Source: Tipula vernalis (taxonomy: Eukaryota > Arthropoda > Insecta > Diptera > Tipulidae). Taken from it: DNA of 64,000 bases. The notes beneath the pieces are model-generated. The model was not told the DNA's origin. It ran no database searches and worked only from the letters and a program-made list of their open reading frames with translations. Both the position numbers and the translations under genes were made by a program. Numbering within the stretch: position 1 is the first letter of the stretch; the number at the start of each line of letters is the position of its first letter. Location of the stretch: contig OY282558.1 of NCBI GenBank assembly GCA_958295665.1, positions 461,998,995-462,062,994 on the forward strand. Reading direction: 5' to 3'. This document shows, in pieces, positions 26,300 through 42,586 of the stretch.

Positions 26300-28170
26300 T
26301 AATATATCTTCAGACGTTAGACTTTAGAAGCTGAACGATCCAAGCAGTAAATTTTACAATCAGTTTAATTTTATAGCAAACATTTAATTAAACCAATAGG
26401 ATATATTATTGTTTTGAAAATGCTAAATGAGATGATGTATTTGTAAATGATTTTAGATTTTCAAAATTTTACGATTTTCGAGATTGCTCTCAATTCTTGT
26501 GACATTTTTCGTTGAAGTTTGGAATGTTTATAATACGTAGGTGGCTTAGACTTGTAGAAAACTTCAAAAGCTTTACGCTAGTAGCTTTAATACAAGTAAA
26601 CATTTTAACGGGCGTATTTTAATTAAATAAAAATATTCAGAGCTTTACGAGCTTTTAAGCCTGAAGCAAGCGTAAAGTGGACTACGATTAATTTATATTA
26701 AGAAACAATTTAAGCGTAGTACGATTTGAGATTTGAATCATTTTTCAACTCATATCACTTAGTTAAACCATTTTGATATGTTGTTGTTGTCAAAATACTA
26801 AATGAGATGTTGCTGTTATCAAATTTAAGGATATTTCAAAGACTTCTGGTTTTCGTGATAGTACCTCATTATTATGCTATTTTTGCTCAAAGTTTAGGCT
26901 ATTTTTAATATTTAGATAGTTTAGGCCTATAAAACTGTCAAGCTGGAGCAAGCTTTCTGGAAGTATTTCGAGCTTTCTTATTAGTAAATACTAAATAATT
27001 TTGGAATATAGAACATAAAACGTAAGGCATCAATAGCAGAAAAATTATTTTGGTTATAGAAAAATGATCAGAGTTTCACGAGCTTTCAAGTGTAAACAAG
27101 CATAAAACAGAAAAGCGGTTGGTGTTTATCTAAAAAGCACTTTAAGCTTAATGCGGTTTCAGATTTAAGCAATTTTGAACTTGCAACAATTAAATAAACC
27201 ACTACGATACTTTTTTGTTGCTAAAATACTTAATGACGCATTATTGTTGTGAAATTTTCGAATATTTGTAAAACTTGCATTTTTTGAGGTTGTCCTTTAT
27301 TTGTATTCCACGTTTGATTAAAGTTTAGCATATTTATAATATTTAGATAGTTAAGCCCTAGAAAACTGCCAAATCTCGGGCAAGCTTTCTATAGTTTAAG
27401 CTTTTTACTAGTAAATCATTTAACGAGCGTAAAACGTAAAGATCTATTATAGAAATGTCATTTTGATTAAATAATAATCTACAAAACTGTATGAGCTTTA
27501 AAGTTTAGATAAATGTTTAAACAGACACCGATTAAATTACCTAAAAAACTATTTTAAGTATAAATTTCACTCAGATTCTAGCATTATATACATTTCAATC
27601 AATTTTGTTTAGATGTTCCTATTGTCAAAATTCTATATGTGAGGCGTAATGTTGTCATCAATTTTGAGGTGGTGGTAATCACTCATTTGTATTTATAATA
27701 TTTAGATGGTTTAAGCCTATGAAACTGTCAAACCTCGAGTAAGCTTTCAGTATGTATTTCGATGTTTCGTACTAGTAAATGAATTAGCAAACATAAAACC
27801 TGAACTGTGATAACATTATTATCATTTTAGTTATTAAAAAATGCTTAAAGCTGTAGGAGCTTTCAAGTTTACAGCAAGCTTACTACAGACACTGATCAGA
27901 TTATCTTAAGAAACAGTTTAAGTTTAATACCCGATGGAATTACCCGATGTATTGTTGTTGTTGTAAAATCTATTGTAATTGGAAATATTGGTGATTTTCG
28001 ATGTTTGATTATAGAAAACTTTCTAACCTCGAGTCAGCTTTAATTAGTTCCAGGTTTTATGCAAGTAAATTATTTAGCGTTCAAAACTTAAAGCTGTCAT
28101 TAGAGAAAATAGTAAGTGCTTTATAAGCTTTTAAGTTTAAACCAATTTATAAACAGACAAAAATTAAAAA
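26300..28170 (+). repeat. Diverged tandem repeat, period about 370-420 bp, 4-5 copies
   Basis: An ordered set of motifs recurs. TTTATAATATTTAGATAGTTTA-like anchors lie near 26528, 26909, 27328 and 27695, each followed by AAACTGTCAA and then AGCAAGCTTTC-like and ACTAGTAAAT-like segments. Tags such as GAGATGTTGCTGTTATCAAAT recur near 26808, 27234, 27642 and 27955. The last copy is truncated near 28005. The copies keep the same order but differ at many positions, so this is an old array. No reading frame is conserved between copies. Confidence 0.65.
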
Positions 28171-29872
28171 AAAACATTAGAAGTAAAATTAAACTATACA
28201 AGGTATCGTGTGAGTTACAAAAAAAGATTTAGTGAAAACGTTGCTCTCGTCGATTATAACGATAACGGATGAATACGGTCATATAAAATAACTGGATGAG
28301 CAAAATTCTGTTATAATAAATATTCATAAAAATTCTCAACAACAGTAATCAAACGGTATCCAACAAAGAACTATAAAAAAATTGTATTATGAATAGTTAT
28401 TGTGTCTTGTACGAAAAAACGTAAAAAACATACCTAACTCTATATAAAAATCCAAAAATTTATTGCCATCCATAAAATGACTCATCAAATATTCATTAAT
28501 CAAGCAGAATACAAAAACGAACAGGACAACCCTTTTGTAATCCCTTAAATTTATCACTGAGTTTTCAGAAATCCAAAATACACAAAAAAAAGCATCGAAC
28601 ATTTACGACTTTTAATATCATTTTCGGTGATCTTTATGACTAATTTTAATTTTTTATAGCGCTATGTGTTGAATTGATAGAATTTTGCTTTTATGCAAAC
28701 TTTATGTCTAACGATAAAATTTTTGTTTGTCTCACCTAGCACACCCACACTGTTCGCTGTAAAAAAAATCAAAGATATACTTATTTTTTGTTGTTGGCTA
28801 GCCATTTAATATAATATTAGCAATCCATGTATCTACCACTAAAACCATTTACTTTTTAATACACAACAAAAACTCGATTTGTTAATAAAAGTTCAAAATA
28901 AATATTAAGAGCGTAGTGCTTTAAAGCATAACCCATAAAATATTTGATAACATTATTTACGTTTCAATGAATAAATAAAACGGTACGTACATAAAATCCA
29001 GCGAACCAGTCGACAAACCACGAATTATATAGATAAATTCAAAATTTATTGAACAAACGTGAACTAGCTAAATGAAAACATTTAGGATAAAGCTTTCGTT
29101 TATGGTCCAATGAACATCGCTGCAGAAAAAAAATGATTGTAGATTAATTTGTACAATAAAATTAAATGATCTTTAAAAAGAACTCCAATCGTCTAAAGTA
29201 AAAAATATTTTTACAAGAAATGTATTGAGCCAATCTTGATAAAAATCTCTCGTTATAATTATCTTTCCACTCTTCGAGTTCTTGTTTATGTGATATGTGT
29301 ATGTATGTATGTATTCGCTTTAGTTTGACATCAATCTTGTAAATAAATTCCAGAGCAAATTCAATCAGCAGTAAAAACGTGACGTGAAAATTTAAACATA
29401 ACAACAAAGTGTATATAGTTTATATATATACATAAATAGATGTATGTTTGTATAAGGGAAGAAGCTTTCGACCCAACCTCCTTAGATAATAACAGTAGTC
29501 TAAGTTTTTTATGTTTTTCTGTTACACAATATATTGCAAAGCATTTTTCCAGAGTATGAAGAGCGTTTTTCTTGTGATTTGAAATTAACGTGTTATTGAC
29601 GTATTGGAAAGCAATTAGGAGTTTTTATAACAAGCTTTTTTTGCTCGAATAAGAGGTTGTTTGATTTGTTGTATTTTTAATGCTTTCTTAATTGGTTGCT
29701 TTCCAAACATCATAATGATGTTTCAAAGTATTTAATTTTTTTAAAACTTGATTTGCTGCACGTATATTGTTGATGTTCTTTAATCACATTAGTAATTCTT
29801 AGACAATCACGTGTTTTAAGCAGAAATATAAAATTACAACACATTTGTAACTAAAAGATACACTCAGAGAAA
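28171..29872. other. AT-rich non-coding stretch left of the satellite element
   Basis: No gene recognised. TATGTATG and TATATA simple sequence near 29300 and 29410. The last bases form the left flank of the element insertion site. Confidence 0.6.
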
Positions 29873-29881
29873 TCTCGTGTG
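29873..29881. other. Target-site duplication, left copy (9 bp)
   Basis: TCTCGTGTG directly precedes the left inverted arm and is repeated exactly, in the same orientation, directly after the right arm (42578-42586). A 9 bp duplication is typical of Foldback-type and Mutator-like DNA transposons. The family is inferred from this length alone. Confidence 0.8.
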
Positions 29882-30162
29882 ACCGGTGTGAAGTATTTCA
29901 CACAAAGTGTAGCTACACAAATTAACGAAAAGTGTAAGTGTATGAAAAAGTGAAGGCCTACATAAAATGTGTAAATAAGAAGTAGAACCAGGTATGGGGC
30001 GATATTACCATAAAGTGGGCAGGTCAGGCTATCCGAAACCATTTTTCCTATTACAATAAAAAGGGTTGGGTATGTTCGACGATATTTTGAAAATTGTGAA
30101 AATCAAATAAACCGTCGAAACCTGATGCTACACTATGACCATTTACGAAAATAGCAGAGATG
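29882..30162 (+). repeat. Left terminal inverted repeat, 281 bp
   Basis: Reads ACCGGTGTGAAGTATTTCAC at the outer end and ends in CAGAGATG, next to the satellite. It is the reverse complement of 42297-42577, with roughly nine bases in ten matching by eye and small compensating indels. Recognisable matched blocks include GTAGCTACACAAATTAACGA, AGAAGTAGAACCAGGTATGG and CCTGATGCTACACTATGACC. The outer six bases, ACCGGT, are themselves palindromic. Confidence 0.85.
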
Positions 30163-30627
30163 CTCGATTATTTCTAAACATTTCTTAGAAAATTCAATTT
30201 TATTGAAAATTAACTGTGCTATAGCCCACAAGTTTTTGGGCGGCAAAAACCTAACATTGCCCGATTACTATGGTTGATACCTCTATCAATAGGTTTCGGG
30301 ACCTTTAATTGATCTGAAAATTTTCATTTTGATTGCTCGATTATTTCTAAACATTTCTTAGAAAATTCAATTTTATTGAAAATTAACTGTGCTATAGCCC
30401 ACAAGTTTTTGGGCGGCAAAAATCTAAAACGGTCCGATTACTATGGTTGATACCTCTATCAATAGGTTACGGGACCTATAATTGCTGCGAAAATTTTCAT
30501 TTTGATTGCTCGATTATTTCTAAACATTTCTTAGAAAATTCAATTTTATTGAAAATTAACTGTGCTGTAGCCCACAAGTTTTTGGGAGGCAAAAATCTAA
30601 AATGGTCCGATTACTATGGTTGATACT

Positions 30628-33600
30628 TCTATCAATAGGTTTCGGAACCTTTAATTGCTCTGAAAATTTTCATTTTGATTGCTCGATTATTTCTAAACAT
30701 TTCTTAGAAAATTCAATTTTATTTAAAATTAACTGTGCTATAGCCCACAAGTTTTTGGGCGGCAAAAATCTAAAATGGTCCGATTACGATGGTTGATACC
30801 TCTATCAATAGGTTTCGGGACCTTTAATTGCTGCGAAAATTTTCATTTTGATTGCTCGATTATTTCTAAACATTTCTTAGAAAATTCAATTTTATTGAAA
30901 ATTAACTGTGCTGTAGCCCACAAGTTTTTGGGAGGCAAAAATCTAAAATGGTCCGATTACTATGGTTGATACTTCTATCAATAGGTTTCGGGACCTTTAA
31001 TTGCTCTGAAAATTTTCATTTTGATTGCTCGATTATTTCTAAACATTTCTTAGAAAATTCAATTTTATTGAAAATTAACTGTGCTATAGCCCACAAGTTT
31101 TTGGGAGGCAAAAATCTAAAATGGTCCGATTACGATGGTTAATACCTCTATCAATAGGTTTCGGGACCTTTAATTGCTGTGAAAATTTTCATTTTGATTG
31201 CTCGATTATTTCTAAACATTTCTTAGAAAATTCAATTTTATTGAAAATTAACTGTGTATAGCCCACAAGTTTTTGGGCGGCAAAAATCTAAAATGGTCCG
31301 ATTACGATGGTTAATACCTCTATCAATAGGTTTCGGGACCTTTAATTGCTGTGAAAATTTTCATTTTGATTGCTCGATTATTTCTAAACATTTCTTAGAA
31401 AATTCAATTTTATTGAAAATTAACTGTGCTATAGCCCACAAGTTTTTGGGCGGCAAAAATCTAAAATGGTCCGATTACTATGGTTGATACCTCTATCAAT
31501 AGGTTTCGGGACCTTTAATTGCTGTGAAAATTTTCATTTTGATTGCTCATTTCTAAACTTTTCTTAGAAAATTCAATTTTATTGAAAATTAACTGTGGTC
31601 CGTATGGTACTATATAGCCCACAAGGTACTATATAGCCCACAAGTTTTTGGGAGGCAAAAATCTAAAATGGTACTATATAGCCCACTATGGTACTATATA
31701 GCCCACAAGTTTTTGGGAGGCAAAAATCTAAAATGGTCCGATTACGATGGATAATACCTCTATCAATAGGTTTCGGGACCTTTAATTGCTGTGAAAATTT
31801 TCATTTTGATTGCTCGATTATTTCTAAACATTTCTTAGAAAATTCAATTTTATTGAAAATTAACTGTGCTATAGCCCACAAGTTTTTGGGGGGCAAAAAT
31901 CTAAAATGGTCCGATTACTATGGTTGATACCTCTATCAATAGGTTTCGGGACCTTTAATTGCTGTGAAAATTTTCATTTTGATTGCTCGATTATTTCTAA
32001 ACATTTCTTAGAAAATTCAATTTTATTGAAAATTAACTGTGCTATAGCCCACAAGTTTTTGGGAGGCAAAAATCTAAAATGGTCCGATTACGATGGTTAA
32101 TACCTCTATCAATAGGTTTCGGGACCTTTAATTGCTGTGAAAATTTTCAGTTTTGATTGCTCGATTATTTCTAAACATTTCTTAGAAAATTCAATTTTAT
32201 TGAAAATTAACTGTGCTATAGCCCACAAGTTTTTGGGAGGCAAAAATCTAAAATGGTCCGATTACGATGGTTGATACCTCTATCAATAGGTTTCGGGACC
32301 TTTAATTGCTGCGAAAATTTTCATTATGATTGCTCGATTATTTCTAAACATTTCTTAGAAAATTCAATTTTATTGAAAATTAACTGTGCTGTAGCCCACA
32401 AGTTTTTGGGAGGCAAAAATCTAAAATGGTCCGATTACTATGGTTGATACCTCTATCAATAGGTTTCGGGGCCTTTAATTGCTGTGACAATTTTCATTTT
32501 GATTGCTCGATTATTTCTAAACATTTCTTAGAAAATTGAATTTTATTGAAAATTAACTGTGCTATAGCCCACAAGTTTTTGGGCGGCAAAAATCTAAAAT
32601 GGGCCGATTACTATGGTTGATACCTCTATCAATAGGTTTCGGAAACTTTAATTGCTGTGAAAATTTTCATTTTAATTGCTCGATTATTTCTAAACATTTT
32701 TTAGAAAATTCAATTTTATTGAAAATTAATTGTGCTATAGCCCACAAGTTTTTGGGCGGCAAAAATCTAAAATGCTCCGATTACGATGGTTGATACCTCT
32801 ATCAATAGGTTTCGGGACATTTAATTACTGTGAAAATTTTCATTTTGATTGCTCGATTATTTCTAAACATTTCTTAGAAAATTCAATTTTATTGAAAATT
32901 AACTGTGCTGTAGCCCACAAGTTTTTGGGCGGCAAAAATCTAAAATGGTCCGATTACTATGGTTGATACCTCTATCAATAGGTTACGGGACCTTTAATTG
33001 CTGTGAAAATTTTCATTTTGATTGCTTGATTATTTCTAAAGATTTCTTAGAAAATTCAATTTTATTGAAAATTAACTGTGCTATAGCCCACAAGTTTTTG
33101 GGCGGCAAAAATCTAAAATGGTCCGATTACTATGGTTGATACCTCTATCAATAGGTTTCGGGACCTTTAATTGCTGTCAAAATTTTCATTTTGATTGCTC
33201 GATTATTTCTAAACATTTCTTGGAAAATTCAATTTTATTGAAAATTAACTGTGATATAGCCTACAAGTTTTTGGGCGGCAAAAATCTAAAATGGTCCGAT
33301 TACGATGGTTGATACCTCTATCAATAGGTTTCGGAACCTTTAATTGCTGTTAAAATTTTCATTTTGATTGCTCGATTATTTCTAAACATTTTTTTAGAAA
33401 ATTCAATTTTATTGAAAATTAACTGTGCTATAGCCCACAAGTTTTTGGGCGGCAAAAATCTAAAATGCTCCGATTACTATGGTTGATACCTCTATCAATA
33501 GGTTTCGGGACCTTTAATTGCTGTGAAAATTTTCATTTTGATTGCTCGATTATTTCTAAACATTTCTTAGAAAATTCAATTTTATTGAAAATTAACTGTG

Positions 33601-35818
33601 CTATAGCCCACAAGTTTTTGGGCGGCAAAAATCTAAAATGGTCCGATTACTATGGTTGATACCTCTATCAATAGGTTTCGGGACCTTTAATTGCTGTGAA
33701 AATTTTCATTTTGATTGCTCGATTATTTCTAAACATTTCTTAGAAAATTCAATTTTATTGAAAATTAACTGTGTTATAGCCCACAAGTTTTTGGGTGGCA
33801 AAAATCTAAAATGGTCTGATTACTATGGTTGATACCTCTATCAATAGGTTTCGGGACCTTTAATTGCTGTGAAAATTTTCATTTTGATTGCTCGATTATT
33901 TCTAAACATTTCTTAGAAAATTCAATTTTATTGAAAATTAACTGTGCTATAGCCCACAAGTTTTTGGGCGGCAAAAATCTAAAATGGTCCGATTACTATG
34001 GTTGATACCTCTATCAATAGGTTTCGGGACCTTTAATTGCTGTGAAAATTTTCATTTTGATTGCTCGATTATTTCTAAACATTTTTTAGAAAATTCAATT
34101 TTATTGAAAATTAACTGTGCTATAGCCCACAAGTTTTTGGGCGGCAAAAATCTAAAATGGTCCGATTACTATGGTTGATACCTCTATCAATAGGTTTCGG
34201 GACCTTTAATTGCTGTGAAAATTTTCATTTTGATTGCTCGATTATTTCTAAACATTTCTTAGAAAATTCGATTTTATTGAAAATTAACTGTGCTATAGCC
34301 CACAAGTTTTTGGGCGGCAAAAATCTAAAATGGTCCGATTACTATGGTTGATACCTCTATCAATAGGTTTCGAGACCTTTAATTGCTGTGACAATTTTCA
34401 TTTTGATTGCTCGATTATTTCTAAACATTTCTTAGAAAATTCAATTTTATTGAAAATTAACTGTGCTATAGCCCACAAGTTTTTGGGCGGCAAAAATCTA
34501 AAATGGTCCGATTACTATGGTTGATACCTCTATGAATAGGTTTCGGAACCTTTAATTGCTGTGAAAATTTTCATTTTAATTGCTCGATTATTTCTAAACA
34601 TTTTATGGAAAATTCAATTTTATTGAAAATTAACTGTGCTATAGCCCACAAGTTTTTGGGCGGCAAAAATCTAAAATGCTCCGATTACGATGGTTGACAC
34701 CTCTATCAATAGGTTTCGGGACCTTTAATTGCTGTGAAAATTTTCATTTTGATTGCTCGATTATTTCTAAACATTTCTTAGAAAATTCAATTTTATTGAA
34801 AATTAACTGTGCTATAGCCCACAAGTTTTTGGGCGGCAAAAATCTAAAATGGTCCGATTACTATGGTTGATAACTCTATCAATAGGTTTCGGGACCTTTA
34901 ATTGCTGTGAAAATTTTCATTTTGATTGCTCGATTATTTCTAAACATTTCTTAGAAAATTGAATTTTATTGAAAATTAACTGTGCTATAGCCCACAAGTT
35001 TTTGGGCGGCAAAAATCTAAAATGGTCCGATTACTATGGTTGATACCTCTATCAATAGGTTTCGGGACCTTTAATTGCTGTCAAAATTTTCATTTTGATT
35101 GCTCGATTATTTCTAAACATTTTTTAGAAAATTCAATTTTATTGAAAATTTACTGTGCTATAGCCCATAAGTTTTTGGGCGGCAAAAATCTAAAATGATC
35201 CGATTACGATGGTTGATACCTCTATCAATAGGTTTCGGGACCTTTAATTGCTGTGAAAATTTTCATTTTGATTGCTCGATTATTTCTAAACATTTCTTAG
35301 AAAATTCAATTTTATTGAAAATTAACTGTGCTATAGCCCACAAGTTTTTGGGCGGCAAAAATCTAAAATGGTCCGATTACTATGGTTGATACCTCTATCA
35401 ATAGGTTTCGGGACCTTTAATTGCTGTGAAAATTTTCATTTTGATTGCTCGATTATTTCTAAACATTTCTTAGAAAATTCAATTTTATTGAAAATTAACT
35501 GTGCTCTATATAGCCCACAAGTTTTTGGGCGGCAAAAATCTAAAATGGTCCGATTACTATGGTTGATACCTCTATCAATAGGTTACGGGACCTTTAATTG
35601 CTGTGAAAATTTTCATTTTGATTGCTCGATTATTTCTAAACATTTCTTAGAAAAGTCAATTTTATTGAAAATTAACTGTGCTATAGCCCACAAGTTTTTG
35701 GGCGGCAAAAATCTAAAATGGTCCGATTACTATGGTTGATACCTCTATCAATAGGTTACGGGACCTTTAATTGCTGTGAAAATTTTCATTTTGATTGCTC
35801 GATTATTTCTAAACATTT
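30628..35818 (+). repeat. Higher-order duplication, copy 1 (period 6,328 bp)
   Basis: This 5,191 bp block reappears at 36956-42146. All variant monomers, including the aberrant ones at 31600-31710 and 35505-35520, occur in the same order at a constant offset of 6,328. The only difference I found is G at 30788 against T at 37116. The blocks stop matching at 30627/36955 (T against C) and 35819/42147 (T against C). The period is about 36 monomers plus roughly 100 bp of extra sequence. Confidence 0.93.
31600..31710 (+). repeat. Aberrant monomer junction with four GGTACTATATAGCCCAC copies
   Basis: The 17-mer GGTACTATATAGCCCAC occurs at 31606, 31625, 31670 and 31690, inside a monomer that is about 94 bp longer than the 173 bp standard. 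The same monomer has lost the CGATTA of CTCGATTATTTC near 31547. It looks like slippage or repair synthesis that reused the ATAGCCCACAAG segment. The whole structure is copied at 37928-38038. Confidence 0.85.
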
Positions 35819-36955
35819 TTTAGAAAATTCAATTTTATTGAAAATTAACTGTGCTATAGCCCACAAGTTTTTGGGCGGCAAAAATCTAAAATGGTCCGAT
35901 TACTATGGTTGATACCTCTATCAATAGGTTTCGGGACCTTTAATTGCTGTGAAAATTTTCATTTTGATTGCTCGATTATTTCTAAACATTTCTTAGAAAA
36001 TTCGATTTTATTGAAAATTAACTGTGCTATAGCCCACAAGTTTTTGGGCGGCAAAAATCTAAAATGGTCCGATTACTATGGTTGATACCTCTATCAATAG
36101 GTTTCGAGACCTTTAATTGCTGTGACAATTTTCATTTTGATTGCTCGATTATTTCTAAACATTTCTTAGAAAATTCAATTTTATTGAAAATTAACTGTGC
36201 TATAGCCCACAAGTTTTTGGGCGGCAAAAATCTAAAATGGTCCGATTACTATGGTTGATACCTCTATGAATAGGTTTCGGAACCTTTAATTGCTGTGAAA
36301 ATTTTCATTTTAATTGCTCGATTATTTCTAAACATTTTATGGAAAATTCAATTTTATTGAAAATTAACTGTGCTATAGCCCACAAGTTTTTGGGCGGCAA
36401 AAATCTAAAATGGTCCGATTACGATGGTTGATACCTCTATCAATAGGTTTCGGAACCTTTAATTGCTGTTAAAATTTTCATTTTGATTGCTCGATTATTT
36501 CTAAACATTTTTTTAGAAAATTCAATTTTATTGAAAATTAACTGTGCTATAGCCCACAAGTTTTTGGGCGGCAAAAATCTAAAATGCTCCGATTACGATG
36601 GTTGACACCTCTATCAATAGGTTTCGGGACCTTTAATTGCTGTGAAAATTTTCATTTTGATTGCTCGATTATTTCTAAACATTTCTTAGAAAATTCAATT
36701 TTATTGAAAATTAACTGTGCTATAGCCCACAAGTTTTTGGGCGGCAAAAATCTAAAATGGTCCGATTACTATGGTTGATAACTCTATCAATAGGTTTCGG
36801 GACCTTTAATTGCTGTGAAAATTTTCATTTTGATTGCTCGATTATTTCTAAACATTTCTTAGAAAATTGAATTTTATTGAAAATTAACTGTGCTATAGCC
36901 CACAAGTTTTTGGGTGGCAAAAATCTAAAATGGTCTGATTACTATGGTTGATACC
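35819..36955 (+). repeat. Mosaic spacer between the two higher-order copies
   Basis: Just before and within the first part, about 35830-36410 repeats the variants of 34096-34676 at an offset of 1,734 bp (about ten monomers), including the diagnostic GGTTTCGAGACC and GTGACAATTTTC changes. About 36410-36583 then matches a monomer type seen at 33290-33465 (TGTTAAAATTTT with a long T run before AGAAAA). About 36584-36900 matches 34676-34990. 36912-36940 carries the GGGTGGC and GGTCTGATT variants of 33793-33820. The segment therefore looks assembled from units elsewhere in the array. Confidence 0.75.
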
Positions 36956-39900
36956 TCTATCAATAGGTTTCGGAACCTTTAATTGCTCTGAAAATTTTCA
37001 TTTTGATTGCTCGATTATTTCTAAACATTTCTTAGAAAATTCAATTTTATTTAAAATTAACTGTGCTATAGCCCACAAGTTTTTGGGCGGCAAAAATCTA
37101 AAATGGTCCGATTACTATGGTTGATACCTCTATCAATAGGTTTCGGGACCTTTAATTGCTGCGAAAATTTTCATTTTGATTGCTCGATTATTTCTAAACA
37201 TTTCTTAGAAAATTCAATTTTATTGAAAATTAACTGTGCTGTAGCCCACAAGTTTTTGGGAGGCAAAAATCTAAAATGGTCCGATTACTATGGTTGATAC
37301 TTCTATCAATAGGTTTCGGGACCTTTAATTGCTCTGAAAATTTTCATTTTGATTGCTCGATTATTTCTAAACATTTCTTAGAAAATTCAATTTTATTGAA
37401 AATTAACTGTGCTATAGCCCACAAGTTTTTGGGAGGCAAAAATCTAAAATGGTCCGATTACGATGGTTAATACCTCTATCAATAGGTTTCGGGACCTTTA
37501 ATTGCTGTGAAAATTTTCATTTTGATTGCTCGATTATTTCTAAACATTTCTTAGAAAATTCAATTTTATTGAAAATTAACTGTGTATAGCCCACAAGTTT
37601 TTGGGCGGCAAAAATCTAAAATGGTCCGATTACGATGGTTAATACCTCTATCAATAGGTTTCGGGACCTTTAATTGCTGTGAAAATTTTCATTTTGATTG
37701 CTCGATTATTTCTAAACATTTCTTAGAAAATTCAATTTTATTGAAAATTAACTGTGCTATAGCCCACAAGTTTTTGGGCGGCAAAAATCTAAAATGGTCC
37801 GATTACTATGGTTGATACCTCTATCAATAGGTTTCGGGACCTTTAATTGCTGTGAAAATTTTCATTTTGATTGCTCATTTCTAAACTTTTCTTAGAAAAT
37901 TCAATTTTATTGAAAATTAACTGTGGTCCGTATGGTACTATATAGCCCACAAGGTACTATATAGCCCACAAGTTTTTGGGAGGCAAAAATCTAAAATGGT
38001 ACTATATAGCCCACTATGGTACTATATAGCCCACAAGTTTTTGGGAGGCAAAAATCTAAAATGGTCCGATTACGATGGATAATACCTCTATCAATAGGTT
38101 TCGGGACCTTTAATTGCTGTGAAAATTTTCATTTTGATTGCTCGATTATTTCTAAACATTTCTTAGAAAATTCAATTTTATTGAAAATTAACTGTGCTAT
38201 AGCCCACAAGTTTTTGGGGGGCAAAAATCTAAAATGGTCCGATTACTATGGTTGATACCTCTATCAATAGGTTTCGGGACCTTTAATTGCTGTGAAAATT
38301 TTCATTTTGATTGCTCGATTATTTCTAAACATTTCTTAGAAAATTCAATTTTATTGAAAATTAACTGTGCTATAGCCCACAAGTTTTTGGGAGGCAAAAA
38401 TCTAAAATGGTCCGATTACGATGGTTAATACCTCTATCAATAGGTTTCGGGACCTTTAATTGCTGTGAAAATTTTCAGTTTTGATTGCTCGATTATTTCT
38501 AAACATTTCTTAGAAAATTCAATTTTATTGAAAATTAACTGTGCTATAGCCCACAAGTTTTTGGGAGGCAAAAATCTAAAATGGTCCGATTACGATGGTT
38601 GATACCTCTATCAATAGGTTTCGGGACCTTTAATTGCTGCGAAAATTTTCATTATGATTGCTCGATTATTTCTAAACATTTCTTAGAAAATTCAATTTTA
38701 TTGAAAATTAACTGTGCTGTAGCCCACAAGTTTTTGGGAGGCAAAAATCTAAAATGGTCCGATTACTATGGTTGATACCTCTATCAATAGGTTTCGGGGC
38801 CTTTAATTGCTGTGACAATTTTCATTTTGATTGCTCGATTATTTCTAAACATTTCTTAGAAAATTGAATTTTATTGAAAATTAACTGTGCTATAGCCCAC
38901 AAGTTTTTGGGCGGCAAAAATCTAAAATGGGCCGATTACTATGGTTGATACCTCTATCAATAGGTTTCGGAAACTTTAATTGCTGTGAAAATTTTCATTT
39001 TAATTGCTCGATTATTTCTAAACATTTTTTAGAAAATTCAATTTTATTGAAAATTAATTGTGCTATAGCCCACAAGTTTTTGGGCGGCAAAAATCTAAAA
39101 TGCTCCGATTACGATGGTTGATACCTCTATCAATAGGTTTCGGGACATTTAATTACTGTGAAAATTTTCATTTTGATTGCTCGATTATTTCTAAACATTT
39201 CTTAGAAAATTCAATTTTATTGAAAATTAACTGTGCTGTAGCCCACAAGTTTTTGGGCGGCAAAAATCTAAAATGGTCCGATTACTATGGTTGATACCTC
39301 TATCAATAGGTTACGGGACCTTTAATTGCTGTGAAAATTTTCATTTTGATTGCTTGATTATTTCTAAAGATTTCTTAGAAAATTCAATTTTATTGAAAAT
39401 TAACTGTGCTATAGCCCACAAGTTTTTGGGCGGCAAAAATCTAAAATGGTCCGATTACTATGGTTGATACCTCTATCAATAGGTTTCGGGACCTTTAATT
39501 GCTGTCAAAATTTTCATTTTGATTGCTCGATTATTTCTAAACATTTCTTGGAAAATTCAATTTTATTGAAAATTAACTGTGATATAGCCTACAAGTTTTT
39601 GGGCGGCAAAAATCTAAAATGGTCCGATTACGATGGTTGATACCTCTATCAATAGGTTTCGGAACCTTTAATTGCTGTTAAAATTTTCATTTTGATTGCT
39701 CGATTATTTCTAAACATTTTTTTAGAAAATTCAATTTTATTGAAAATTAACTGTGCTATAGCCCACAAGTTTTTGGGCGGCAAAAATCTAAAATGCTCCG
39801 ATTACTATGGTTGATACCTCTATCAATAGGTTTCGGGACCTTTAATTGCTGTGAAAATTTTCATTTTGATTGCTCGATTATTTCTAAACATTTCTTAGAA

Positions 39901-42146
39901 AATTCAATTTTATTGAAAATTAACTGTGCTATAGCCCACAAGTTTTTGGGCGGCAAAAATCTAAAATGGTCCGATTACTATGGTTGATACCTCTATCAAT
40001 AGGTTTCGGGACCTTTAATTGCTGTGAAAATTTTCATTTTGATTGCTCGATTATTTCTAAACATTTCTTAGAAAATTCAATTTTATTGAAAATTAACTGT
40101 GTTATAGCCCACAAGTTTTTGGGTGGCAAAAATCTAAAATGGTCTGATTACTATGGTTGATACCTCTATCAATAGGTTTCGGGACCTTTAATTGCTGTGA
40201 AAATTTTCATTTTGATTGCTCGATTATTTCTAAACATTTCTTAGAAAATTCAATTTTATTGAAAATTAACTGTGCTATAGCCCACAAGTTTTTGGGCGGC
40301 AAAAATCTAAAATGGTCCGATTACTATGGTTGATACCTCTATCAATAGGTTTCGGGACCTTTAATTGCTGTGAAAATTTTCATTTTGATTGCTCGATTAT
40401 TTCTAAACATTTTTTAGAAAATTCAATTTTATTGAAAATTAACTGTGCTATAGCCCACAAGTTTTTGGGCGGCAAAAATCTAAAATGGTCCGATTACTAT
40501 GGTTGATACCTCTATCAATAGGTTTCGGGACCTTTAATTGCTGTGAAAATTTTCATTTTGATTGCTCGATTATTTCTAAACATTTCTTAGAAAATTCGAT
40601 TTTATTGAAAATTAACTGTGCTATAGCCCACAAGTTTTTGGGCGGCAAAAATCTAAAATGGTCCGATTACTATGGTTGATACCTCTATCAATAGGTTTCG
40701 AGACCTTTAATTGCTGTGACAATTTTCATTTTGATTGCTCGATTATTTCTAAACATTTCTTAGAAAATTCAATTTTATTGAAAATTAACTGTGCTATAGC
40801 CCACAAGTTTTTGGGCGGCAAAAATCTAAAATGGTCCGATTACTATGGTTGATACCTCTATGAATAGGTTTCGGAACCTTTAATTGCTGTGAAAATTTTC
40901 ATTTTAATTGCTCGATTATTTCTAAACATTTTATGGAAAATTCAATTTTATTGAAAATTAACTGTGCTATAGCCCACAAGTTTTTGGGCGGCAAAAATCT
41001 AAAATGCTCCGATTACGATGGTTGACACCTCTATCAATAGGTTTCGGGACCTTTAATTGCTGTGAAAATTTTCATTTTGATTGCTCGATTATTTCTAAAC
41101 ATTTCTTAGAAAATTCAATTTTATTGAAAATTAACTGTGCTATAGCCCACAAGTTTTTGGGCGGCAAAAATCTAAAATGGTCCGATTACTATGGTTGATA
41201 ACTCTATCAATAGGTTTCGGGACCTTTAATTGCTGTGAAAATTTTCATTTTGATTGCTCGATTATTTCTAAACATTTCTTAGAAAATTGAATTTTATTGA
41301 AAATTAACTGTGCTATAGCCCACAAGTTTTTGGGCGGCAAAAATCTAAAATGGTCCGATTACTATGGTTGATACCTCTATCAATAGGTTTCGGGACCTTT
41401 AATTGCTGTCAAAATTTTCATTTTGATTGCTCGATTATTTCTAAACATTTTTTAGAAAATTCAATTTTATTGAAAATTTACTGTGCTATAGCCCATAAGT
41501 TTTTGGGCGGCAAAAATCTAAAATGATCCGATTACGATGGTTGATACCTCTATCAATAGGTTTCGGGACCTTTAATTGCTGTGAAAATTTTCATTTTGAT
41601 TGCTCGATTATTTCTAAACATTTCTTAGAAAATTCAATTTTATTGAAAATTAACTGTGCTATAGCCCACAAGTTTTTGGGCGGCAAAAATCTAAAATGGT
41701 CCGATTACTATGGTTGATACCTCTATCAATAGGTTTCGGGACCTTTAATTGCTGTGAAAATTTTCATTTTGATTGCTCGATTATTTCTAAACATTTCTTA
41801 GAAAATTCAATTTTATTGAAAATTAACTGTGCTCTATATAGCCCACAAGTTTTTGGGCGGCAAAAATCTAAAATGGTCCGATTACTATGGTTGATACCTC
41901 TATCAATAGGTTACGGGACCTTTAATTGCTGTGAAAATTTTCATTTTGATTGCTCGATTATTTCTAAACATTTCTTAGAAAAGTCAATTTTATTGAAAAT
42001 TAACTGTGCTATAGCCCACAAGTTTTTGGGCGGCAAAAATCTAAAATGGTCCGATTACTATGGTTGATACCTCTATCAATAGGTTACGGGACCTTTAATT
42101 GCTGTGAAAATTTTCATTTTGATTGCTCGATTATTTCTAAACATTT
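36956..42146 (+). repeat. Higher-order duplication, copy 2
   Basis: Near-identical to 30628-35818 at offset 6,328. Its right end coincides, within about 15 bp, with the end of the satellite at the extra arm module, so the second copy is cut by the array boundary. Near-identity over 5.2 kb implies either a very recent unequal exchange or an assembly duplication. Confidence 0.93.
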
Positions 42147-42160
42147 CTTAGAAAATTCAA

Positions 42161-42296
42161 TTTCGACAGTTTATTTGATTTTCACAATTTTCAAAATAGC
42201 GTCGAATATACCCAACCCTTTTTATTTTAATAAGAAAAATTGTTTCGAATAGCTTGACCTGTCCACTTTATGGAAATATAAGCCCACATCTGGTAA
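42161..42296 (-). repeat. Extra partial copy of the right inverted arm
   Basis: TTTCGACAGTTTATTTGATT at 42161 repeats the outer-arm sequence at 42339 in the same orientation, and similarity continues through CAAAATAGCGTCGAA, CCCAACCC and TAGCTTGACCTGTCCACTTT to about 42293. The offset is about 178 bp. The right arm therefore contains 1.5 modules while the left arm has one. Modular arms of this kind are known from Foldback elements. Confidence 0.85.
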
Positions 42297-42577
42297 CATC
42301 TCTGAGTTTTTCGTTAATGGTCATAGTGTAGCATCAGGTTTCGACAGTTTATTTGAATTTCACAATTTTCAAAATAGCGTCGAACATACCCAACCCTTTT
42401 ATTTTAATAAGAAAAATTGTTTCGGATAGCTTGACCTGTTCACTTTATGGTAATATCGCCCCATACCTGGTTCTACTTCTGTTTTACTTTTTTTATGTAG
42501 GCCTACACTTTTTCAGTACACTTACACTTTTCGTTAATTTGTGTAGCTACACTTTGTGTGGAATACTTCACACCGGT
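42297..42577 (-). repeat. Right terminal inverted repeat, 281 bp
   Basis: Inverse of 29882-30162. It begins with CATCTCTG next to the extra module and ends ACTTCACACCGGT at the outer boundary. It has the same length as the left arm. The 96-codon frame across it at 42353-42643 is incidental. Confidence 0.85.
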
Positions 42578-42586
42578 TCTCGTGTG
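42578..42586. other. Target-site duplication, right copy (9 bp)
   Basis: TCTCGTGTG, identical to 29873-29881, abuts the outer end of the right arm. The exact match next to both arm ends is what fixes the element boundaries. Confidence 0.8.

Follow-up and report, generated by a model that had tools for sequence, protein, structure and literature searches.

A 173-bp satellite inside a probable Foldback-like transposon family of Tipula vernalis

A 12,696-bp block in the window, by which we mean the whole 64,000-nucleotide stretch of Tipula vernalis DNA analysed here, is likely to be one insertion of a non-autonomous Foldback-like, probably MULE, transposon, moved in trans by the product of an open reading frame (ORF) in sister copies and enlarged by growth of its satellite array in place. 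According to this explanation, the two arms of a founder copy would have come to enclose a small piece of a 173-bp satellite. Sister copies, which have the same tips and a 1,062-residue ORF, would supply the protein that moves the satellite copies and thereby generates 9-bp target duplications. After landing, the arrays would grow by unequal exchange or a similar process; some copies would have reached only a few units, and one about 39 kb. We followed the element through the genome of the window itself (1,270,886,964 bases, 1.27 Gb, in 340 contigs), where each search scored about the best 40 candidates.

The inserted unit and its array

The unit spans positions 29882-42577 of the window and ends in mutually inverted arms of 281 bp. 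The left arm (29882-30162, + strand) and the right arm (42297-42577, - strand) are identical at 260 of 282 aligned positions (92%, two gaps, E 4e-116). Exact copies of TCTCGTGTG abut both outer ends, at 29873-29881 and 42578-42586 on the + strand; these are the only two on that strand of the 64 kb, and an exact-match search of the whole 64 kb did not find the reverse complement. Given this base composition, the probability that 9 bp match by chance at fixed positions is about 1.4e-5. The tip ACCGGTGTGAAG has a single occurrence in the 64 kb, at 29882; the single reverse complement lies at 42566. On the inner side of the right arm lies an additional partial arm unit (42161-42294, - strand; 119 of 134 positions identical to the left arm), whose left end forms the satellite/arm junction. 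Inverted arms, flanking duplication and unit length had all been proposed by the sequence-only reading, and alignment and exact-match search confirm them.

That reading had also taken arms and array for one inserted unit. The evidence supports this: the same tips and junctions are found at other loci, flanked there by exact 9-bp duplications of other sequence. Could two arm copies instead have entered independently, to the left and right of a satellite array that was already there, with no transposon involved? Arms do occur without satellite, namely in the gene-bearing kind of copy, and the satellite is found at further sites. However, an exact 9-bp duplication across the whole unit, together with identical junctions at many places, already contradicts such a history, which we regard as extremely unlikely. 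A query of the joined flanks matched the window's own two flanks only (2 of 2 candidates), and thus no paralogous empty site was found in the genome.

Between the arms runs a single array in one orientation (30161-42163, + strand), delimited by a tandem repeat finder and by unit spacing. Its 12,003 bp correspond to 69.4 units of 173 bp and to 94.5% of the inserted unit, which bears out the earlier estimate of about 94%. In agreement with the claim that the unit codes for nothing, it has only two stop-to-stop frames of at least 130 residues, both of them satellite read-through. Long head-to-tail arrays of homogenised units at many sites characterise satellite DNA, and such an organisation is found here. 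Inside the array we observe a tandem duplication with a period of 6,328 bp. Its first copy (30789-35835, + strand) and its second (37117-42163, + strand), which reaches the right junction, differ in one of 5,047 bases, at 35819. An irregular stretch of small internal repeats (31604-31737, + strand) recurs at 37932-38065, both copies lying within the duplicated block.

Near-perfect repeats are a known assembly hazard. The length of the array, and above all the 6,328-bp duplication, might therefore be an artefact of misassembly around a shorter real insertion. We consider this quite improbable, since arms, tips and target duplications are independent of array length, and short copies (715, 1,909 and 1,983 bp) have the same architecture.

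Elsewhere in the window, degenerate direct repeats of about 66-74% identity and an offset of several hundred bases occupy 26379-28190. In an Rfam scan of the window, all families stayed below their gathering scores. Outside the array there are 127 frames of at least 62 residues; 62 of them were scanned against Pfam, and one, which may be a host-gene exon, resembles LEDGF weakly (E 0.0014).

Satellite-bearing and gene-bearing copies

Copies with the same ends, 9-bp duplications and differing monomer numbers had been proposed as a check, and such copies were found. The left arm as a query yielded 1,485 candidates, and all of the best 40, which were scored, matched. Twenty stretches around arm matches revealed two kinds of copy with the same tips. 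In the first, the arm is joined to the 173-bp satellite (12 stretches, L009-L020). In the second, it is joined to arrays of its own 178-bp unit, as in E299 (L021 and L022), E294 (L023 and L024), L025, L027 and L028; in E299, E294 and E317 (L029 and L028) these arrays are inverted on the two sides. Two mixed copies, L026 and the one at C1:338427695, lead from the arm through one or more 178-bp units into the satellite.

Eleven elements were read at both ends, this being limited to copies with both ends at hand; L011 is without a right tip, and others were read at one end. Ten of the 11 have exact 9-bp duplications, each different: the window element (12,696 bp, TCTCGTGTG), L017 (715 bp, GTTCTATCC), L018 (1,909 bp, GTCCCACAG), L025 (1,424 bp, ACGTTCTCT), E299 (14,583 bp, GTGTTTACT), E294 (13,740 bp, TTGATTCAA), E317 (15,385 bp, ACTTGTGGG), C3:61790371-61830070 (39,700 bp, ACTCATGAC), C3:60992501-61005445 (12,945 bp, GCAAACTAT) and C1:338427695-338429677 (1,983 bp, CAATTGTAA). 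L026 (870 bp) showed no target duplication at its two ends. Seven of the 11 carry satellite, and the six of these with a duplication range from 715 bp to 39.7 kb in length. In the 39.7-kb copy the first 15.4 kb of the array were read; beyond that point, three 200-bp samples are satellite on the expected strand.

The junctions between satellite and arm are shared in the same manner. A 161-bp query across the window's right junction was spanned at all 40 places scored (best 40 of 669; 91-100% identity, four scaffolds), and the common form of the left junction at 40 of 40 (best 40 of 809); these are fewer than 40 independent insertions, as some places lie close together or in duplicated regions (C2:333.05, 333.18 and 333.50 Mb; C2:329.30-329.33 Mb; perhaps C1:391.73 and 392.03 Mb). 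Among the best 40 on each side, five left/right pairs stand less than 150 kb apart, at spacings of 603, 1,288, 10,920, 12,514 and 39,081 bp, and most junctions have no partner there. The left junction of the window differs from the common one in that the arm continues with sequence like that of the 178-bp kind before the satellite sets in. This difference would be accounted for if the arm had later undergone exchange with one of the other kind. With the satellite lying between the same tips and junctions at other loci, the role of the mobile element as a satellite carrier is well supported.

What could move these elements? In E299, a frame of 1,086 codons from stop to stop lies between the two 178-bp arrays; searches used 1,062 residues of it, starting just after the first methionine. 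Among the 43 of 3,593 candidates that were scored in the genome, three loci are full-length, free of stops and near-identical at 100% (rounded), and others are broken. The copy in E317 has one internal stop. E299 and E317 share their tips with the satellite copies and have 9-bp duplications, and 178-bp units are present in the 1.5-kb flank of the gene, on one side, at 9 of 10 fetched gene loci. Relatives of the ORF with 43-57% identity, several without stops (for example C3:108671222, C2:111063390 and C1:377223931), probably represent further transposon families of this type. Also present in the gene region of E299 is a 150-residue frame (L021:7054-7506, + strand) with an imperfect 171-bp inverted repeat nearby; going by the look of its letters, this frame may be a mariner-type transposase.

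The central part of the ORF matches the Pfam family MULE weakly (E 0.055; 14.3 bits against a curated cut-off of 27.6), a match that is unlisted at E 1 when the whole ORF is used. No protein homologue was found at E 0.001 among 7,992 scored candidates, nor any match in solved structures at E 1. Mutator elements make duplications of 8-10, mostly 9 bp, and the exact 9 bp at 10 of the 11 elements agree with this; together with the weak MULE match they point to a probable place in the Mutator superfamily. Long inverted arms with internal tandem repeats, the hallmark of Foldback elements, are seen in the window's arms with their extra partial unit and in the 178-bp tandem units on both sides of E299, E294 and E317. 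The sequence-only reading had suggested a Foldback- or Mutator-like group and a search for a transposase gene between the same arms. The grouping is likely in view of the duplications, the long arms with tandem units and the gene-bearing sisters; sister copies with the same tips and a long ORF do exist, and this ORF, its MULE match being sub-threshold, is a candidate transposase that may act in trans on the satellite copies.

Placement in the P superfamily, close to Galileo of Drosophila, was rejected. Target duplications of Galileo are 7 bp long, and those found here 9 bp. Galileo resembles the present family in its long, internally repetitive inverted arms but has a P-element transposase with a THAP domain; neither the ORF nor any of its three parts has a Pfam match to a THAP domain or P-type transposase.

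The arms of the gene-bearing, 178-bp kind are nearly identical, whereas those of satellite-bearing copies sit on longer private branches of an arm tree in which no branch is strongly supported. The gene-bearing kind therefore looks younger, and the satellite copies would be older, with arrays renewed later.

Growth of the arrays and origin of the satellite

If arrays grow where they have landed, relationships among their monomers might record it. We compared 441 monomers from 13 elements, excluding those outside 165-182 bp; L017 yielded none. Along the monomer tree the element label changes 63 times, compared with at least 303 times in 100 shuffles. For every one of the window's 64 monomers the nearest monomer lies in the same element (share 1.00), and the share is similarly high in L010 (1.00), L012 (0.98), L013 (0.93), L014 (0.91), L011 (0.85), L020 (0.80) and L019 (0.78). 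It is low in L016 (0.56), L009 (0.48), L018 (0.43), L015 (0.00) and L026 (0.00). The mean monomer distance is 0.030 within the window and 0.044-0.067 between the window and other elements, and the window consensus differs from the commonest consensus at three positions; in L016 the within-element mean of 0.068 is as high as that between elements. Larger monomer samples are thus mostly private and smaller ones (1 to 20 monomers) less so, a pattern expected of growth after insertion and one that sample size itself favours. Judging from these sequence comparisons, arrays probably grow mainly after landing, because the monomers of long arrays cluster by insertion and the window contains its 6,328-bp tandem duplication.

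A different scenario would let long arrays jump whole: elements of 12-40 kb would transpose, and later gene conversion, a possible sequel to such transposition, would make their arrays look private. Some long copies (12,696, 12,945 and 39,700 bp) do have intact ends and exact duplications, and gene-bearing copies of 14.6 and 15.4 kb with duplications suggest that such lengths may be movable. On the other hand, short copies have the same junctions, their monomers are private to a lesser degree than in long arrays, and the near-perfect 6,328-bp duplication is a growth event within the window's own array. We consider whole-array transposition unlikely. Our preferred explanation, a short satellite-bearing element that transposed and expanded, has observations counting against it too: the sub-threshold MULE match and the lack of an ORF homologue in the search above, L026 with its missing duplication, the divergent left junction of the window, the non-private monomers of L016, L009, L018, L015 and L026, and satellite elsewhere that may exist without arms.

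Where does the satellite itself come from? Local alignment of the 173-bp unit with the 178-bp unit and with the arm was no better than with shuffles, 79 and 71 of 200 of which, respectively, scored as high; against the gene region, 48 of 60 shuffles did so. The shuffles kept letter pairs in blocks, not the full dinucleotide content. With similarity inside the shuffle range, none of these three sequences is supported as a source of the satellite. The monomer query revealed satellite at further sites (best 40 of 2,887 scored), including the unplaced contigs C194 and C267. At C1:20.91-20.95 Mb, three samples are satellite and agree in strand with hits at 20.891-20.895 Mb; the shared left junction lies at 20.969 Mb. 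Together they fit a single array, some 78 kb long or longer (C1:20891106-20969462), with its start at this junction. The region C1:74.65-74.77 Mb is not one simple array, with one sample on each strand and one without satellite. The satellite may have existed beforehand and been captured, or it may have been born within the family. The idea of the transposon as a birthplace of satellite DNA hence stands in part: it is supported for array growth, as long arrays look amplified inside single insertions, but not for the first source of the 173-bp unit, which is no more like arm, 178-bp unit and gene region than shuffles are.

One satellite array may have an element of its own inside. In L019:7123-8304 (- strand; C1:392.77 Mb) a 399-residue frame within the 173-bp array matches DUF3504 and Phage_integrase above their cut-offs. 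It is predicted to be a tyrosine recombinase nested in the satellite, perhaps from a Crypton-like element.

Related systems and implications

The closest known system is Tetris, a Foldback element of Drosophila virilis with a satellite that arose from the unit of its arm (Dias et al. 2014, PMC4079207). As described there, Tetris has long inverted arms in which an outer part is combined with tandemly repeated units of about 220 bp, varies in unit number, contains long arrays within the element, and is placed in Mutator on the basis of its 8-10 bp duplications. Its repeated unit has a 37-bp stretch in common with its arm, and a gene-bearing copy was not found (PMC4079207). Here, by contrast, same-tip copies carry an uninterrupted ORF, and the 173-bp unit is unlike the arm; an origin of this satellite from its own arm in the manner of Tetris is unsupported, the alignment being no better than shuffles. 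It is the second repeat, the 178-bp unit, that is a piece of the arm.

Tm1, a Mutator/Foldback element of root-knot nematodes, is likewise described as having repetitive inverted arms of variable length, mostly 9-bp duplications, and both gene-bearing and gene-less members (PMC3169594). Its arm units are only 13-15 bp long, the word satellite is absent from that text, and its transposase is a recognised Phantom/MULE protein (PMC3169594), whereas the ORF described here matches below threshold. A review describes miDNA4, a Tc1/mariner MITE of Xenopus, as having an internal satellite whose copy number varies, a tandem repeat that is proposed to have been captured (PMC12628747). This superfamily is a different one, and the present family has 9-bp duplications and one element of 39.7 kb. 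The Tipula case thus joins features of Tetris, Tm1 and miDNA4, and adds same-tip copies with an uninterrupted ORF and the 39.7-kb element. Our literature search found no description of this element, which does not show it to be unpublished.

A broader proposal, which we put forward tentatively and with slightly less than even confidence, is that a single transposon family serves as a nursery for satellites in two ways: it would multiply its own 178-bp arm unit and disperse an unrelated 173-bp satellite. Its insertions would seed private arrays of up to tens of kilobases, some of which would turn into ordinary satellite loci once they had outgrown their arms or lost them.

It has long been asked how satellite arrays arise at scattered sites and why arrays on different chromosomes have sequence in common. 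The same package at very different lengths throughout one genome suggests that a transposon spreads the satellite and that growth takes place where it has landed. Apparent stages of this process are found side by side: gene-bearing copies, short satellite copies in which the junctions are shared, and long arrays, homogenised privately, in which transposon ends and target duplications are preserved. Since these apparent stages coexist in one genome, the order of transposition followed by expansion can be tested by comparing insertions and alleles.
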